The notes under the pieces are model-generated. The model saw nothing but the letters and a program-made list of their open reading frames with translations. It had not been told where the DNA came from and did no database searches. Of a DNA stretch of 64,000 bases, positions 24,950 through 33,428 are shown piece by piece. Made by a program: the position numbers and the translations under genes. The stretch covers positions 4,216,001 through 4,280,000 of the forward strand of contig NZ_CP077291.1 of the NCBI RefSeq assembly GCF_019048065.1, written 5' to 3'. Origin of the DNA: Citrobacter farmeri (GTDB taxonomy: Bacteria > Pseudomonadota > Gammaproteobacteria > Enterobacterales > Enterobacteriaceae). Numbering within the stretch: the stretch's first letter is position 1; every line of letters begins with the position of its first letter.

Positions 24950-26380
<1,431 letters not shown>

Positions 26381-26439: not shown

Positions 26440-27120
26440 TCAGAATGTATATTGCAACCCTAAGCGATATCGACTTTCGCGATCGTCTCGTAGCGGAGAT
26501 ACCGAAACATTTCCCACCTCGACATAAGGCGTCCATTGCGCAGAGGCTTTCCATGCAATCCGCCCATTATATTCATAATCCTCTTTCTTATTATCATACT
26601 TGATTGCGTCGCTGTGCTTATAGACGTAATTGGTTTCAAAGGTGAGCGTGTTCCACCGATATCCCAGCCAGATATCACCACGGTTAATATGTTCATCATC
26701 TTTGCCCGCGCTGGTATCCCGCGCATACTCATAACGATAACGTGCGGAAAGATATAACCCCGAATCAAAGTTATACCAGCCACGTAAGTACGGTTTATAG
26801 ATTGTTTTAGATGATGTCGTTTCGAATTCTACCCCAGGCTGTAAATCGATCACCGGGGTCAATTTGTACGTGTAGTTGAGCGAATATTCACTACCGTTAT
26901 CGACAATATCTGAGAACGGTTTATCCGTTGAATCTCCACCCGATTTAAATTTCCCTTCAACAAAGAATCCCACACCATTCGCAAACCGATGCGAAACCTG
27001 AATCCTGTCGCGGTGAACTTTATTGTCGTCGAGATACTCATGCCTGAAATCAAGCATGAGCGCAGTTGAAGAAAATGCTGTCGAGAATAAAAAGAGGCTT
27101 AATACAATATTCCTTTTCAT
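26440..27120 (-). CDS. KdgM/NanC-family outer-membrane porin
   Basis: A 226-residue outer-membrane beta-barrel of the oligogalacturonate-specific porin (KdgM) family. A signal peptide covers about residues 1-20. The mature start LDFRHEYLDD carries the DxRHE motif of the family, and many alternating aromatic strands follow. The last residue is Phe (GLQYTF), the usual barrel signal for BAM. Family members are 12-stranded channels for acidic oligosaccharides. Here it is the last gene of a cluster for a di/tricarboxylate, so it may pass that anion, but this is inference. It lies 183 nt after the aldolase gene, with a weak hairpin between, and is visibly AT-richer than its neighbours. Confidence 0.85.
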   Translation of the reverse strand: MKRNIVLSLFLFSTAFSSTALMLDFRHEYLDDNKVHRDRIQVSHRFANGVGFFVEGKFKSGGDSTDKPFSDIVDNGSEYSLNYTYKLTPVIDLQPGVEFETTSSKTIYKPYLRGWYNFDSGLYLSARYRYEYARDTSAGKDDEHINRGDIWLGYRWNTLTFETNYVYKHSDAIKYDNKKEDYEYNGRIAWKASAQWTPYVEVGNVSVSPLRDDRESRYRLGLQYTF

Positions 27121-27144
27121 AATATTACCCTGTGATATTTATTT

Positions 27145-27169
27145 TAAAAAATCCCAATTTCTGAATTGG
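27145..27169 (-). terminator. Weak terminator-like hairpin before the porin gene
   Basis: The 6-bp stem CCAATT / AATTGG with a 4-nt loop is followed on the minus strand by GGATTTTTT. The low GC content makes it weak; it may reduce porin expression relative to the enzymes. Confidence 0.35.
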
Positions 27170-27303
27170 TTGCAGGGGAAATACGCAGCCGTAATGAAAC
27201 CGTTGCCAGATAACATCAATAACGCTATTGACTCACGTTCTTAAACGAGCAGACGTATTAATCTTTATTCTATAAGGAGACGTTTCCTTTACAGCAATAA
27301 CCA

Positions 27304-27999
27304 CTAATGCCAGATATCTTCAATAATTTCACATTGCTTATTGGCAAGCTCCCTATCCACCCAACTGCGGTCAGCATTACCCGCTCGGGTTGCCAGCAGT
27401 TTTTTACTGTCAAACAACTGATATTTTTCAGCTTCTGCCAGAAGTGCTTGCGCATCCTGTCGGGCAATGACAATAACGCCATCACCATCGCCAACAATGA
27501 CATCTCCCGGCATGACTGACATACCGCCGCAGGATATCGGCACATTAATCTCCCCCGGTCCGTCCTTAAAGGGTCCCGCAGGTGTACTTCCCGTCGCGTA
27601 AACCGGAAATTCCATCGCCTGAATACTGTACAAATCACGGACAGGGCCATCCAGAACGATCCCGCAAGCCTTGCGCGTGTGGGCATACGTAATCATGATT
27701 TCCCCCATCAATGCCTGGCTATTACCGCCATCATTGGAGACGACCAGCACATCGCCAGGTGTAAGGATATTTAATGCCTTATGAATCATTAAGTTATCAC
27801 CAGCACGGACTTTCACTGTCAATGCCACGCCAACCATGTTGTCTTTACATGGCAAAGACAGTCGACGGATAGTACTGTTCATTGCGCTGAGTCTTCCCAT
27901 GCAGTCGGCAATATTCGCTGTCGGGATGGCTTTAAATGCAGCAATCAGCTCCGGGTCCGGAAGACGACGCTGAGTAAAGACTCTGAATCCATTGCTCAT
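27304..27999 (-). CDS. RraA-fold aldolase, GalC/LigK-like (4-carboxy-4-hydroxy-2-oxoadipate aldolase)
   Basis: A 231-residue protein of the RraA fold. This group includes both RNase E inhibitors and class II pyruvate aldolases. The aldolase signature is present: LDGPVRD with Arg121 and Asp122, which bind substrate and metal in HMG/CHA aldolases, plus GGNSQALMGE (91-100), where the loop binds pyruvate. The length fits HMG/CHA aldolases rather than RraA (about 160). CHA aldolase splits 4-carboxy-4-hydroxy-2-oxoadipate into pyruvate and oxaloacetate. AAGGAGG lies 9 nt before the ATG, and the symporter stop is 14 nt upstream. The assignment rests on motif and neighbours, and substrate is inferred. 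Confidence 0.8.
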   Translation of the reverse strand: MSNGFRVFTQRRLPDPELIAAFKAIPTANIADCMGRLSAMNSTIRRLSLPCKDNMVGVALTVKVRAGDNLMIHKALNILTPGDVLVVSNDGGNSQALMGEIMITYAHTRKACGIVLDGPVRDLYSIQAMEFPVYATGSTPAGPFKDGPGEINVPISCGGMSVMPGDVIVGDGDGVIVIARQDAQALLAEAEKYQLFDSKKLLATRAGNADRSWVDRELANKQCEIIEDIWH

Positions 28000-28013
28000 A
28001 CTATTTCCTCCTT

Positions 28014-29312
28014 TTATTTGAGTGTCTCAGAGCGATATTCCACCGCTGTATTTTTTGACTGTGTAGTAAGCGTCTGACGCATTTGTTCTTTATCAAGAAC
28101 GCCGTCCCATGCAGACACCACGATGGCGGCAATACCGTTGCCGATCAGGTTGACAATCGCCAGTCCGGTTCCGACAAAACGATGGATACCCAGAATAAGA
28201 ACCATCCCCGCGACAGGCACGACGGGCAAAACAATCAGGGTACTGGTTAACATGACAAATGCCGCTCCCGTTACGCCTGCTGCGCCTTTCGAGGTCAACA
28301 TCGCGACAAGGATCAAGATCATCTGGCTGGAGAAGGAAAGCTCCGTATTCGTCGCCTGCGCGATAAACAGGATGGCCATCGTCATATACAGGTTGGTACC
28401 ATTAAGATTGAACGAATATCCTGACGGTACGACCAGCGCCACCACCGGTTTTGGGCATCCCATTCGCTCTACTTTTTCCATCAGGTGAGGCAAGACGACC
28501 GATGAAGAGCCCGTCCCCAGAATGATCAACAGTTCTTCTTTGATATACCGGAGATAAGCAAACAGGCTGAAACGGCAGACGCTGGCGACAGCACCATAAA
28601 TGACTATCACAAAAATAATCAGCAGCAGATAGAAGCCGAAGACCATTTTGACCAGCGGAATCAATGACGCAAGTCCATAGGCGCCGATGGTATACGCAAT
28701 GGCACCAAATGCTCCAATTGACGACAGTTTGGAGATCAGATGCACATTATGGAAAAAGACGCGGGACGCACTTTCAACAAACTGAAATACCGGACGCCCT
28801 TTATCACCGATGGCTGACAAAGAATAACCAAACAGAATAGATACCATCAGAATTGCCAGCACATTACCCGTAGAGAAGGCGCTAACAAAGGTTGATGGGA
28901 TAATATTCATCACGAAAGTCACCACGTTCACATTTTTGGCGCTCTCGGTATATTTGTTTATCGCTGAGGTATCCAGAGTGGAAAGCTCAACATTAAATCC
29001 GGCGCCAGGCTGGATAATATGACCGCCAATCAGACCGATAATTAAGGCGACAATCGACATGACCGCAAAATAGATCAATGCCTTACCACCCACCCGGCCC
29101 AGCTCTTTCATATCGCGCATCCCGGCAATGCCGGTGACGACGGTACAAAAAATGATCGGGCCAATGATCATTGCTATCAACTTAATAAAACCATCACCTA
29201 ATGGCTTCATTTCCACTGCCAGATCCGGAAAGAAATAGCCAAGAGACACACCAATCACAATCCCTACTATTACCTGAAAATAAAGTTCTTTATAAAATGG
29301 TTTACTAGTCAT
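28014..29312 (-). CDS. DctA-type dicarboxylate:cation symporter
   Basis: A 432-residue inner-membrane transporter of the DAACS family (DctA, GltP). The serine-rich re-entrant loop GTGSSSVVLPHL and the helix GYSFNLNGTNLYMTMA with the family NLNGT motif are both present, as is the second hairpin region KGAAGVTGAAF. DctA imports C4-dicarboxylates with protons. It is about as long as DctA, but the real dctA lies elsewhere in enterobacteria, so this is a paralogue dedicated to the cluster. Likely substrates are the di/tricarboxylic acids its neighbours process. The ATG at 29312 is chosen for its GGAGGTG box; an upstream in-frame start at 29363 lacks one. Confidence 0.88.
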   Translation of the reverse strand: MTSKPFYKELYFQVIVGIVIGVSLGYFFPDLAVEMKPLGDGFIKLIAMIIGPIIFCTVVTGIAGMRDMKELGRVGGKALIYFAVMSIVALIIGLIGGHIIQPGAGFNVELSTLDTSAINKYTESAKNVNVVTFVMNIIPSTFVSAFSTGNVLAILMVSILFGYSLSAIGDKGRPVFQFVESASRVFFHNVHLISKLSSIGAFGAIAYTIGAYGLASLIPLVKMVFGFYLLLIIFVIVIYGAVASVCRFSLFAYLRYIKEELLIILGTGSSSVVLPHLMEKVERMGCPKPVVALVVPSGYSFNLNGTNLYMTMAILFIAQATNTELSFSSQMILILVAMLTSKGAAGVTGAAFVMLTSTLIVLPVVPVAGMVLILGIHRFVGTGLAIVNLIGNGIAAIVVSAWDGVLDKEQMRQTLTTQSKNTAVEYRSETLK

Positions 29313-29396
29313 TTTATTCACCTCCACATTTCGATGTGGCTTCAGTAACCTCTGAACACTCAATCCGTATAAAAAGTCAAAGGCCTCAGGTCGAGC

Positions 29397-30278
29397 TTAT
29401 GCTTCCACAGGCGCAAATCCATAGAGACGGACGGGGTTTTCGACAAGCAGTTTGCGGCGCATGTGCTCATCCTCACAGAAATCCAGCATCAGATTGACCA
29501 GTTCACCGTCGTTAGGCATGTCGTTACTGATATTGGGATGGGGCCAGTCGGTTCCCCATAGCACCCGATCCGGAGCGGTTTCAATCAATGCGCGGGCAAA
29601 AGGAATGGCATCATTGAACGGTCGCACACCGGCAGATATACGCTCCGAGCCGCTGACTTTCACCCATGCAAACGGATTGTCTCGCATGAGATGCAGTAAC
29701 TGCTGGAAGGGCTTTTGCTCAAGACCTGATGCGGTTTTTGCGCGCCCCATGTGATCGATAATGAACGGGATATCAATTTTGCTAATCACGTCGGAATAGG
29801 TAACGATATCCTGCGCGTCCAGATGCAGCACGACATGCCAGCCCAGGTCTTTAACACGGTGCAGAACCGAGAAAAAACGAGGGAGATCGGGGGCCCCACC
29901 AAGGTGCTGAACGAAGTTAAAACGAACCCCTCGCACCCCACCAGTATGGAGCCGCTCCAGTTCGGCATCACTTTCATCGCCATTGACCATGGCAACGCCG
30001 AGATAACGTCCTTCACTTCGGGCGATAGCATCCAGCATCGCGCGGTTATCAGTACCATGGCAACTGGCCTGGACAATCACGGCCCGGCTGATACCCAGCC
30101 AGTCATGCAGCGCCATCAGCTTTTCGAACGGCGCATCTTCCGGGGTGTATTTTCGGTTCGGCCCGTAAGGGAAGATGCTACCAGGACCAAAAACATGGCA
30201 ATGTGCATCACACGCACCGGGCGGTAATATCTCCCGCGGTTTAATCGGATTGGGATCGGGTGATTTGCAGCTTTTCAT
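29397..30278 (-). CDS. Amidohydrolase, 2-pyrone-4,6-dicarboxylate hydrolase (LigI)-like
   Basis: A 293-residue TIM-barrel metal-dependent hydrolase of the amidohydrolase_2 family. The N-terminal HxH is DAHCHVFGP with His26 and His28, and the C-terminal barrel aspartate lies in GTDWPHPN near residue 248. LigI opens the lactone ring of 2-pyrone-4,6-dicarboxylate to give 4-oxalomesaconate and needs no metal although it keeps these residues. The ATG at 30278 has AAGGAGG just upstream; in-frame alternatives at 30305 and a TTG at 30308 overlap the previous gene and lack such a site. It lies 26 nt after the GalB-like gene. Other lactonases of the family cannot be excluded. Confidence 0.78.
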   Translation of the reverse strand: MKSCKSPDPNPIKPREILPPGACDAHCHVFGPGSIFPYGPNRKYTPEDAPFEKLMALHDWLGISRAVIVQASCHGTDNRAMLDAIARSEGRYLGVAMVNGDESDAELERLHTGGVRGVRFNFVQHLGGAPDLPRFFSVLHRVKDLGWHVVLHLDAQDIVTYSDVISKIDIPFIIDHMGRAKTASGLEQKPFQQLLHLMRDNPFAWVKVSGSERISAGVRPFNDAIPFARALIETAPDRVLWGTDWPHPNISNDMPNDGELVNLMLDFCEDEHMRRKLLVENPVRLYGFAPVEA

Positions 30279-30304
30279 GGGGCCTCCTTGGGCATTATTT
30301 TTCA

Positions 30305-31030
30305 TCAAGAAAACTGAGCGGTAACCTGCGGGAAAATGCGCTGATAACCTTCGGCGTATTTGATTTTCAAATCTGAATTTCTTGACGCCTGCACGCCGCG
30401 CTGCAACGCGACTCGGGTGTAGTACTCCCAGAGGTGTTCCTGCGCTGCCATGGACTCCATCGCTTCACGCTTGGTTTGCCATACTTCGCTGATATCCAAC
30501 AGCACTTCTGGCTTCCATTCACATTGCTCCGGTTGATGGGGCTCAAACAGAAAGACGGGCGGTGCGCCAATCACGGGCTTTTCAGGATCGTGGCCGTGCG
30601 CCTGGGCGACAATTCGGGCTTCCTGAGCGATATGCGTCGCCATTGGGTGGTCGAAGTTGTAGGGATCTTTCAACGAATGTGTCAGCACAAACTCAGGTTT
30701 GAGTTCACGATACAGATCAGCGAGGGCGAACAGAACGTCATCACTGACCCGCATGGGATAGTCACCGACGTCCATAAAATGAATTGTTCTGGCCCCCAGG
30801 ATTTCGGCAGCCTTACGCGCTTCCTTCTCCCTTTCCTGTTTTACGGTGGTCATCTCCATGCCAGGCTGACGCCAGAGTTTGGCGGATTCACCGCGTTCGC
30901 CAAACGACAGACACACAATGTGCATGTCCCAGCCACGAGCGGCATATAGTGCAATGGCACCGCCAGCACGCCAGACAAAATCAGCGGAGTGAGCACTGAC
31001 GATCAACGCCGTTTTAGGTTGCGTATTCAT
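30305..31030 (-). CDS. PIG-L-family hydratase, GalB-like (4-oxalomesaconate hydratase)
   Basis: A 241-residue zinc-dependent PIG-L (LmbE) family protein. The zinc motif appears as SAHSADFVWRAGG with His14 and Asp17, the variant form found in GalB of Pseudomonas putida in place of the usual AHPDDE. A late LTHSLKDPYNFDHP supplies the third ligand. GalB hydrates 4-oxalomesaconate to 4-carboxy-4-hydroxy-2-oxoadipate. The ATG at 31030 (MNTQPKTAL) follows AGAAGGAAG and is preferred to an upstream frame reaching 31081 that would overlap the preceding gene. Neighbours on both sides encode adjacent steps. Confidence 0.82.
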   Translation of the reverse strand: MNTQPKTALIVSAHSADFVWRAGGAIALYAARGWDMHIVCLSFGERGESAKLWRQPGMEMTTVKQEREKEARKAAEILGARTIHFMDVGDYPMRVSDDVLFALADLYRELKPEFVLTHSLKDPYNFDHPMATHIAQEARIVAQAHGHDPEKPVIGAPPVFLFEPHQPEQCEWKPEVLLDISEVWQTKREAMESMAAQEHLWEYYTRVALQRGVQASRNSDLKIKYAEGYQRIFPQVTAQFS

Positions 31031-31058
31031 ATTTCTTCCTTCTGTGAGAGCTAACGAA

Positions 31059-32114
31059 TCAAGGAACCAGCACGTCGCCACGCATGATCAACCGCGCCGT
31101 TCGCATCAATGCGGCCTGCGCCACAGAGCCATCCTCATTCAGGCGCAGATACACCGTTAATTCACCTGAAGGATGCTCGATAGACAGGCGTTGTTCTGTG
31201 CCACCGGAAAGTTGCGATACCGCGTGAGCGACGGAACCCGGCATAACTGCAGCGGTAGCAACGGTGACGGCACCGAGGACACCAATGGCGGCATGGCAGG
31301 TATGAGGGATGAATGTTCTGGTGCAGAGCGCACCGCCAGATTGCGATCTGGCAACCATACTGATTTTAGGCACCGACTTATTGGCGACATCAGAGATCCC
31401 CATCAGCTTGCCGGCTTTTAAGCGCAGGTTTTCAATACGTGTCGCCAGCGCGTTATTCGCATTAAGCTGATCTTTCGTTTCATAGCCCGTTATTCCCATA
31501 TCGCTGGCAGCCACAATAATGACCGGCATGCCGTTATCGATGCAGGTCACCCGGATGCCGTCAATGACATCACACAGTTTGCCCGTGGGGAGTAAGGCAC
31601 CGCAGACCGAACCTTCCGTATCAAGGAAATTCTGCAATACCGGAGCGGAGGTTCCTGGTACGCCGTCAATACTGACATCCCCTTCGTAACAGGGATGTCC
31701 ACCGGGAGTTTGTAGCGTCACTTCAGCGATCATGTTGGTATTGAGTGTACGGATGCGCAGCACCGTTTGATCGCCCTGCGCGGTAATCAGACCCGCCTCC
31801 AGCGCTGCCGGACCAGCCGCGGCCAACATGTTCCCGCAATTGGGCGTGGTATCCACATGTTGTTCGTTGATGGAGACCTGAGCAAACAAAAAGTTGATAT
31901 CGGCCTCAGCATCGGGGGCCAGCGAGATAATGCCGACTTTACTCGTCAGCGTCGTGGCGCCGCCAAGACCATCAATTTGTCTTTCATCAGGGGAGCCCAT
32001 CACTGACAGAATTAAACGATCGCGTTCGGCAATCTCTTCCGGCAGATCTTTCGCCAGGAAAAACGGTCCTCTTGATGTGCCACCGCGCATAAACCAGCAG
32101 GGTAATGTCTTCAT
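31059..32114 (-). CDS. PrpF-family tautomerase, GalD-like (4-oxalomesaconate tautomerase)
   Basis: A 351-residue protein of the PrpF/diaminopimelate-epimerase fold, made of two similar halves. The N-terminus MKTLPCWFMRGGTSRGPFF is the PrpF signature with the MRGGTS(R/K)G loop, and TPNCGNML and VTVATAAVMPG carry further conserved residues. GalD converts the keto and enol tautomers of 4-oxalomesaconate; PrpF itself isomerises 2-methylaconitate. With GalB-, LigI- and aldolase-like genes directly downstream, the GalD role fits better. It is the first enzyme gene of the cluster, 160 nt after the regulator gene on the same strand. Confidence 0.82.
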   Translation of the reverse strand: MKTLPCWFMRGGTSRGPFFLAKDLPEEIAERDRLILSVMGSPDERQIDGLGGATTLTSKVGIISLAPDAEADINFLFAQVSINEQHVDTTPNCGNMLAAAGPAALEAGLITAQGDQTVLRIRTLNTNMIAEVTLQTPGGHPCYEGDVSIDGVPGTSAPVLQNFLDTEGSVCGALLPTGKLCDVIDGIRVTCIDNGMPVIIVAASDMGITGYETKDQLNANNALATRIENLRLKAGKLMGISDVANKSVPKISMVARSQSGGALCTRTFIPHTCHAAIGVLGAVTVATAAVMPGSVAHAVSQLSGGTEQRLSIEHPSGELTVYLRLNEDGSVAQAALMRTARLIMRGDVLVP

Positions 32115-32185
32115 GATCTTCTCGCTTCGTCATAACCATCAGGTCTGTGAGAACTAAGCTAACAACGAAGATGACTATGAAAAAG

Positions 32186-32221
32186 ATGCAAACGGTCATA
32201 GCTGAATTGCATTTTTTGCAT
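32186..32221. promoter_or_regulatory. Candidate LysR operator upstream of the galD-like gene
   Basis: ATGCAA (32186-32191) and TTGCAT (32207-32212) form an inverted repeat with a 15-bp spacer, and a second TTGCAT follows at 32216-32221. The group lies 72-107 bp before the start codon, a typical place for LysR-family activator sites. Which protein binds is inferred. Confidence 0.4.
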
Positions 32222-32274
32222 AGCAGCAGGAAGAGTGACTTAGTGATACCCGTGCATATCTGGCAAGATAAGAT

Positions 32275-33174
32275 TCAGGACAGACGCTGACTGATAATCC
32301 GTTGCTGCAGGAGCAGTTCCATCGTCCGCTGGGCGAGAGAAGAGAAATGATGCTGGTTTGATGTGGCCAGGATGACCCGGTTCAGAATAGGAGGGGTAAT
32401 GGGGACGGCAGTCAATCCTTCGGGACGGTAATCGACTTCCAGGGAATTCGCGGGTAATACCGCATAGCCAAATCCTCTGGACACCAGTCCCAGCATAGAG
32501 GGAACCGTATCGATTTCAAGGACGACATTCAGACTGACATCATGACGGGCGCATTCTATTTCGACCAGATTGCGCAACATTTGCTGTCGGTTAGGGATAA
32601 TGAGGGGATAGGTGCTGAGTTCACGCAGCGGAATATTCATGTTGCTGGCAACAGGTGAATGACTCGGCGCGATAAGACATAATTTTTCAGTCCAGAGATG
32701 CTGATATTTCAGGCTACGTTCAGGAGAGGGGTTATAAAGTATCGCAATATCCAGTTCCCCCAAAATTAAACGTTTTTGCAGCCAGTACGTCAGGTTCTCG
32801 GTAATCGCCAGGGAACAGTCAGGAAATTCAGCAAGAAAATCGGTGACCAGCCCCACGGTTAAGAGTTTCCCCAATGTAGGAGGCATACCAACCGTCACTT
32901 TGCCCTGGTATATGCCGTCACCGGTACTTAATGCCTGCTCGGCGATTTCAACCTGTCGCAGAATACCTTTACCATGCTCCAGCAGTTGTCGACCTGCTGC
33001 GGTCAGCGTCACGCCGCGACCGTTACGTTTAAGCAATGTTTTCCCCAGTTCCAGTTCTAACTGGCGTACCTGTCGGCTGACCATCGACTGAGACTGGTCA
33101 AGAGTCTGAGCTGCCTGGCTGAAACTGCTTTGCTCCGCTACCCGGATAAAGCTGCGTAATTTCTTTAAATCCAC
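32275..33174 (-). CDS. LysR-family transcriptional regulator of the catabolic cluster
   Basis: A 299-residue LysR-type regulator. The winged helix-turn-helix covers residues ~1-60 (FSQAAQTLDQSQSMVSRQVRQLE), followed by the linker helix and a periplasmic-binding-like effector domain. It probably activates the downstream enzyme genes in response to a pathway acid; GalR plays that role for gallate genes in Pseudomonas. The start is the GTG at 33174, with a strong AGGAGG 5 nt upstream; a nearby ATG is in another frame. Unusually for LysR genes it is not divergent from its likely targets but lies upstream on the same strand. Confidence 0.88.
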   Translation of the reverse strand: MDLKKLRSFIRVAEQSSFSQAAQTLDQSQSMVSRQVRQLELELGKTLLKRNGRGVTLTAAGRQLLEHGKGILRQVEIAEQALSTGDGIYQGKVTVGMPPTLGKLLTVGLVTDFLAEFPDCSLAITENLTYWLQKRLILGELDIAILYNPSPERSLKYQHLWTEKLCLIAPSHSPVASNMNIPLRELSTYPLIIPNRQQMLRNLVEIECARHDVSLNVVLEIDTVPSMLGLVSRGFGYAVLPANSLEVDYRPEGLTAVPITPPILNRVILATSNQHHFSSLAQRTMELLLQQRIISQRLS

Positions 33175-33341: not shown

Positions 33342-33428
33342 TGGTACCGAGGACGGGACTTGAACCCGTAAGCCCTATTGGGCACTACCACCTCAAGGTA
33401 GCGTGTCTACCAATTCCACCACCTCGGC
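33342..33428 (-). tRNA. leuU: tRNA-Leu (GAG)
   Basis: A complete 87-nt class II tRNA beginning GCCGAGG and ending in an encoded CCA. The anticodon loop is TTGAGGT, anticodon GAG. The long variable arm (TGCCCAATAGGGCT) is normal for leucine tRNAs. It starts 9 nt after the secG stop and is probably co-transcribed with it. Its 3' end faces the accessory cluster. Confidence 0.98.

Follow-up and report, generated by a model that had tools for sequence, protein, structure and literature searches.

The argG-leuU interval of Citrobacter farmeri carries a seven-gene operon that we read, with a probability of roughly 0.55 and from sequence comparison, as a dioxygenase-free route for taking up and degrading a lactone dicarboxylate from outside the cell, 2-pyrone-4,6-dicarboxylate (PDC) being the likeliest one. 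The operon occupies positions 26440-33174 of the stretch of DNA analysed here (64,000 nucleotides of contig NZ_CP077291.1, positions 4,216,001 to 4,280,000; hereafter the window). Opening of the ring of gallate, methylgallate or protocatechuate by other bacteria can yield PDC as a by-product. Our proposal is that a KdgM porin and a DctA-type symporter would take up PDC or a close lactone, a LigI-like enzyme would open this lactone to 4-oxalomesaconate (OMA), a PrpF protein would shift the double bond of OMA, GalB would carry the product on to CHA, and an RraA-fold enzyme would cleave CHA to pyruvate and oxaloacetate, a LysR protein presumably turning the operon on. The operon encodes a modified form of a known pathway, whose reaction order is set out in PMC12314914: PDC to OMA (LigI), OMA to KCH (LigU/GalD), KCH to CHA (LigJ/GalB) and CHA to pyruvate plus oxaloacetate (LigK/GalC). 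An earlier note, made from the letters of the window alone, had suggested the same outcome; the general route from OMA through CHA to pyruvate and oxaloacetate is supported by our analysis, while we infer the entry lactone and the last cleavage.

Gene order of the operon

Seven co-directional open reading frames (ORFs) on the minus strand, the strand of every window feature described below unless stated, appear in the ORF listing of the window in the order lysR, prpF, pigL, amidohydrolase, symporter, rraA and kdgM, between argG (25037-26380, plus strand) on one side and tRNA-Leu(GAG) (leuU; 33342-33428, minus strand) on the other. The earlier note had described four adjacent enzyme genes accompanied by a LysR regulator, a symporter and a porin; its genes and coordinates stand, but the enzyme genes do not form an uninterrupted block, since the symporter gene divides the amidohydrolase gene from the RraA-fold gene. 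Pfam recognizes PrpF (357 bits), PIG-L (86), Amidohydro_2 (196), SDF (340), RraA-like (155) and KdgM (225), together with the two LysR domains HTH_1 and LysR_substrate in the regulator. The motifs reported beforehand are all present, namely SAHSADFVW, HxH (as HCH) with GTDWPHPN, and LDGPVRD, and GTDWPHPN searched as a degenerate pattern occurs once genome-wide. Because of the 293-residue relatives and the reach of the alignments, three genes likely start downstream of their longest-ORF starts (galB at ATG 31030, ligI at ATG 30278 and the symporter gene at ATG 29312).

The four enzymes

The steps from OMA to CHA are well supported by sequence kinship, and the GalD and GalB assignments of the earlier note held. 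The product of prpF/galD (31059..32114), a predicted 4-oxalomesaconate tautomerase (1,3-allylic isomerase), scores 505 bits with the NCBIfam model OMA_tautomer (NF033377, cut-off 440), is 52.9% identical to LigU 6p3j and retains in the alignment the Lys and the Cys that distinguish the LigU entries 6p3h and 6p3k from 6p3j. The PIG-L-fold protein encoded by galB (30305..31030; longest ORF from 31081), a predicted 4-oxalomesaconate (KCH) hydratase, combines the SAHSADFVW variant with 66.5% identity to the GalB structure 5cgz (E 3.6e-106), and the remaining PIG-L-fold structures listed match it at E 2e-8 or worse. Both results speak to an improbable alternative, in which the operon would serve an unrelated tricarboxylate or dicarboxylate (aconitate-like or citramalate-like) and its amidohydrolase would be promiscuous. 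Methylaconitate and methylitaconate isomerases do figure among the relatives of PrpF with solved structures, the symporter matches C4-dicarboxylate transporter models, and KdgM is described in Pfam as an oligogalacturonate porin family; however, PrpF lies above the OMA tautomerase cut-off and far below that of the methylaconitate isomerase (prpF) model (194 bits for 440), and a GalB that is so close to an OMA hydratase leaves this alternative little room. The host genome also encodes a second PrpF-family protein, 45% identical (G000:C1:1126181-1127236), possibly YbhH, a protein called a 4-oxalomesaconate tautomerase homologue in one paper.

The amidohydrolase (cog3618; 29397..30278; longest ORF from 30308) is a predicted lactone hydrolase, probably acting on PDC. 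LigI 4d8l is its closest structure (E 9.7e-73, 44.2% identity), and in LigI numbering HxH, His180, Arg124, Arg217 and Asp248 are conserved; these comprise the residues expected of a PDC hydrolase among cog3618 amidohydrolases (HxH, His180 and Asp248), and the catalytic Asp that is altered in 4dia and 4di8 is retained. Not all of the LigI pocket is kept. We use the name H-type for enzymes with the signature H130/H156/D158, to which the window enzyme belongs, and R-type for the classical LigI form, the R-type group having Arg130, Asp133 and Tyr156, with Glu158 in all members except L158 (Val).

The RraA-fold protein (27304..27999), a class II aldolase by fold, belongs to subfamily PRK06201 (263 bits, cut-off 231) and fails both CHA-aldolase models (ligK_PcmE, 128 of 304.5 bits; PRK09262, 142 of 179 bits). 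It retains Arg123, Asp124, Asn71, His75 and Lys147; in CHA aldolase, according to PMC5065237, Arg123 is catalytic, Asn71 and Lys147 are important, and Asp124 and Glu199 are metal ligands. From the position of its gene and the presence of the active-site Arg and Asp, we regard it as a probable CHA aldolase of a non-classical subgroup. The earlier note had named LigI and GalC/LigK; classical membership is not established for either protein, as the two enzymes fall outside the groups usual in protocatechuate and gallate clusters and two residues in the active-site region of LigI are changed. With the solved CHA aldolase 3noj the RraA-fold protein shares 33% identity, against 53-69% for nine annotated cluster-borne aldolases.

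Origin of the substrate, uptake and control

Searches for gallate-dioxygenase relatives and PF02900 proteins turned up, in the operon or in the genome, no ring-cleavage dioxygenase of a gallate or protocatechuate 4,5-cleavage cluster. A gallate dioxygenase query gave no relative at E 1e-5 in the host genome (G000), in the two congeners that share the cluster (G296 and G299) or in G114, a genome of another genus with the operon; it gave a 27% match in G048, a further such genome, and 76% identity in G119, a genome with a gal-type cluster. The host genome encodes one PF02900 (LigB-fold) protein, which has 262 residues, is YgiD-like and lies between genes that we take to be zupT-like and ygiC-like. 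G296, G299 and G114 likewise have one PF02900 protein each, YgiD-like by score and length only, and G048 has three. A LigA search gave no match, but its control likewise matched nowhere, so that this silence carries no weight. With no relative of gallate dioxygenase and a single YgiD-like LigB-fold protein, the substrate of the operon is therefore probably imported.

A natural supply of PDC is plausible. Published work describes a Pseudomonas NGC7 mutant, unable to convert PDC, which turned syringate almost completely into PDC (PMC12314914), the non-enzymatic conversion of an intermediate, CHMOD, into PDC (PMC12314914, PMC8091115), extracellular PDC from engineered N. aromaticivorans strains (PMC8091115), and PDC in an ADP1 culture whose strain background is unchecked (PMC12481942).

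The DAACS (DctA-like) symporter (28014..29312; longest ORF from 29363) is a probable lactone-dicarboxylate importer. In the tree it forms a 100/100 clade with ligI-adjacent symporters of a Sodalis praecaptivus plasmid (beside an R-type LigI) and of Paraburkholderia (beside an H-type one), a clade that excludes the 50% paralogue of the host itself; the other ligI-linked symporters make up a second clade. Each of these modules has its own porin, which is KdgM in the window, an annotated carbohydrate porin in Sodalis and an annotated porin in Paraburkholderia, and a search of the Paraburkholderia stretch yielded no kdgM relative. The window kdgM (26440..27120), encoding a KdgM-family outer-membrane porin and thus a probable acid-permeable substrate pore, accompanies the cluster in G296 and G299, whereas the 16 kb surrounding the operon of G114 and that of G048 showed no relative of it. 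The LysR-family protein (32275..33174), the probable regulator of the operon, is 40-44% identical to the LysR proteins adjoining H-type ligI genes (L071, L139, L140) and 38% identical to that of the Sodalis cluster. The module lysR-ligI-symporter-porin is common to the window and to unrelated bacteria. Between lysR and prpF (32115..32274), the block TATGCAAAAAATGCAATTCAGCTA is exact in three congeners and recognizable with changes in G114 and G048 (five genomes), and the region is a probable operator/promoter. Scans gave promoter-like sites at the level of shuffled sequence (9, shuffle mean 9.0) and no excess of terminator-like sites (3, shuffle mean 7.4).

PDC or another lactone

The identities of GalB, PrpF and the LigI-like protein to solved enzymes, together with the score of PrpF with the OMA tautomerase model, support PDC as the substrate, as does the grouping of the symporter with one that stands beside a classical LigI, galB, aldolase and tautomerase in Sodalis. 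A number of observations weigh against it, several of which concern the amidohydrolase. Two pocket residues differ from LigI, Arg130 and Tyr156 both being His. Arg130 of LigI reportedly binds one of the two carboxylates of PDC and, with Arg124, is said to form the carboxylate pocket (work attributed to Hobbs in 2012); in the window enzyme Arg124 is retained and Arg130 is lost. Glu158 is moreover Asp, and the VD following residue 131 is GG. H130, H156 and D158 are shared by 120/120 of its closest relatives (the best 120 of 8000 scored candidates). A plain PDC-hydrolase label was abandoned once residues 130 and 156 were found to be changed, and the enzyme is not established as a classical LigI. 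The only NCBIfam model that it matches is 4-sulfomuconolactone hydrolase (NF042924), with 290 bits for a cut-off of 500. This model favours H-type (237-309 bits, n=5) over R-type enzymes (205-229 bits, n=5), with 297 bits for L144 and 237-309 for L071-L073; every H- and R-type score lies under the cut-off, and the 4-sulfomuconolactone hydrolase label was rejected on that ground.

The two types also differ in genomic context. We tallied 68 loci, of which 32 are H-type, 28 R-type and 8, excluded, of other signatures, leaving out the window itself and the R-like copies of three tandem loci. Ring-cleavage genes are found near 3/32 H-type and 24/28 R-type loci, so that R-type accounts for 24 of the 27 typed loci that have one; neighbours were called by identity thresholds of our own choosing, which distant ring-cleavage genes may escape. 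The Fisher value of this difference, 1.5e-9, is an overstatement, since non-independent loci enter the count: the window-type operon in relatives supplies four of the 32 H-type loci, and the genus-level group g250 many of the rest. Genes of the lower pathway (for the hydratase, the CHA aldolase or the tautomerase) lie near 27/28 R-type loci and near 19/32 H-type loci, four of these 19 being window-type operons, and this last count speaks for PDC; a DAACS symporter lies near 9/32 H-type and 3/28 R-type loci, and a TTT binding protein near 22/32 and 7/28. Three loci of group g250, outside the class of the window (L142, L145 and L148, in genomes G650, G409 and G666), have an H-type and an R-like ligI in tandem, accompanied by genes for GalB, a CHA aldolase and a symporter of DctA-like type. 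This suggests that the two LigI forms act on different substrates, and two lactones may converge there on one pathway.

The remaining objections come from elsewhere in the operon and from its setting. Thr145, Arg195 and Glu199, kept in 9/9 annotated cluster-borne CHA aldolases (a tenth row, L049, ends before residue 195 and is not counted), are changed in the RraA-fold protein, Glu199 aligning with an Asp. The window-type operon of G048 (L045) lacks prpF, and a search of the whole G048 genome at E 1e-10 yielded no relative of PrpF; the tautomerase step may be dispensable there or taken over by another protein. G286 has no gallate-dioxygenase match despite its gal-type cluster, so such a lack is not peculiar to the window operon. 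In the open-licence literature surveyed, no KdgM or DAACS protein is named as a PDC carrier. Finally, PMC12314914 describes wild-type NGC7 as accumulating no PDC, and in the literature surveyed build-up is documented for mutant or engineered strains only, so that a natural supply is no more than plausible.

A less likely but serious alternative is that the H-type clade is a distinct lactonase which opens a carboxylated lactone other than PDC, muconolactone-like or another of plant or microbial origin, and that the operon imports this lactone and funnels the product into the oxalomesaconate pathway without ring cleavage. The altered residues, the model scores, the tandem copies and the scarcity of ring-cleavage genes would all fit such an enzyme. 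An H-type enzyme is, however, the LigI found within a LigA-LigB-LigC-LigJ-aldolase stretch (L010), and in two Roseomonas loci (L072, L083) H-type ligI is accompanied by LigA, LigB and CHA aldolase; these cases and the frequent company of GalB favour PDC for the H-type. GalB and the tautomerase are, besides, close to enzymes that act on OMA, for which PDC is the obvious lactone, and the nearest cluster-borne kin of the symporter include one beside a classical LigI. PDC is the substrate that we continue to prefer. A catechol 2,3-dioxygenase-like gene also occurs in five H-type ligI clusters (L144, L147, L150, L151 and L072), and the protein of L144 passes TIGR03211 (369 bits, cut-off 320).

Distribution and insertion site

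The cluster is present at argG-leuU, with further DNA, in two of seven congeners (G299 and G296). Three others (G297, G227, G125) show a bare argG-leuU gap of ~200 bp, which bears out the lineage-specific insertion proposed in the earlier note, and in the last two (G295, G298) the gap measures 3-4 kb and contains none of the genes of the cluster. That note had also placed yhbX at this site in E. coli K-12; one E. coli genome does have a phosphoethanolamine transferase gene, called yhbX in K-12, in the interval from argG to tRNA-Leu. The G+C content is 0.50 for the cluster, 0.53-0.54 for its flanks and 0.43 for kdgM. The cluster fits a lineage-specific insertion, acquired into a variable site. 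An origin by tRNA-directed integration is unsupported, the 3' end of leuU having no exact duplicate near argG. Among the congeners, the argG-leuU gap is a site of variable content (L103, L107, L108, L109); G296 has an autotransporter-like gene in the interval from argG to kdgM, and in both G296 and G299 a row of LacI-like, enolase-family and MFS-like genes adjoins the cluster. Padloc, run on the neighbourhood of one related cluster, gave no match.

The operon also occurs without kdgM in two other genera (G114 and G048), argG, secG and tRNA-Leu being absent from the 16 kb examined. Its recurrence at the same site in two of seven congeners and again in these two genera argues that it is no chance assembly. 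The operon is real and coherent, and it probably works. That it might instead be a decayed or partly non-functional import, retained by chance, seems very unlikely to us: the spread is patchy, with a LigI 97-100% identical in 3/8 species of the genus (own included) and a 32% relative in one more, yet none of the seven frames is interrupted, two congeners have their counterparts at this site with 94-99% identity, and G114 keeps six of the seven genes in the same order. GalB relatives at E 1e-40 are found in 29/295 genomes of the family, own included; outside the window, 20 of the 29 galB places were examined, 18 of them lying in other cluster types and the window-type operon occurring in G114 and G048. 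In an order-wide sample, a LigI relative (E 1e-60 or better) is present in 10/394 genomes, the nine others being 45-50% identical. For comparison, ftsH of the host is 90-91% identical to Salmonella, E. coli, Klebsiella and Enterobacter records (the best 8 of 10 listed), and the first 20 kb of contig C2 match plasmids from many enterobacteria. LigI relatives at 80-87% include, among the matches listed, Serratia fonticola, Edaphovirga cremea, Brenneria roseae and a Citrobacter metagenome-assembled genome.

Comparison with known systems

The gallate (gal) operon of Klebsiella aerogenes pC9_001 resembles the window operon in GalB, OMA tautomerase, an RraA-fold aldolase, a LysR regulator and a transporter, but it has a gallate dioxygenase and a classical aldolase with no LigI beside them, whereas the window operon has a LigI-like enzyme, a symporter and a porin and lacks a dioxygenase. 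Protocatechuate 4,5-cleavage (lig/pmd) operons share a LigI-family hydrolase, OMA tautomerase and RraA-fold aldolase, and differ in carrying LigA, LigB and LigC, often LigJ instead of GalB, and mostly an R-type LigI. A parallel is found on plasmid pHS1 of Sodalis praecaptivus (L074), where LigI, a DAACS symporter of the same clade, a porin, LysR, galB, aldolase and tautomerase stand in a 25-kb stretch without an annotated ring-cleavage dioxygenase. Its LigI is of classical R-type, its aldolase is classical and its porin comes from another family; the genome taken as that of Sodalis praecaptivus (G004) encodes two PF02900 proteins elsewhere, one of them YgiD-like by score. This cluster may be an independent PDC-import operon. 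The lysR-ligI-symporter-porin module of Paraburkholderia (L071) has an H-type LigI 70.5%, a symporter 58% and a LysR 40% identical to those of the window; it has another porin, and the annotated genes of its 18.9-kb stretch include none of the lower pathway.

Significance

We met no account of an enterobacterial PDC operon without a dioxygenase in the open-licence literature searched, which is weak evidence of novelty, and none of the literature surveyed there names a PDC carrier. If our reading is true, the operon would point to proteins that may carry PDC, a building block of polymers, across the outer and the inner membrane, and the H/R signature would divide enzymes that are now jointly named PDC hydrolases, a question of LigI specificity that the tandem H-type and R-like pairs make directly testable. 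For the bacteria themselves, it would mean that some live on a ring-cleavage product while unable to cleave the ring, that is, by cross-feeding on the breakdown of lignin and tannin.

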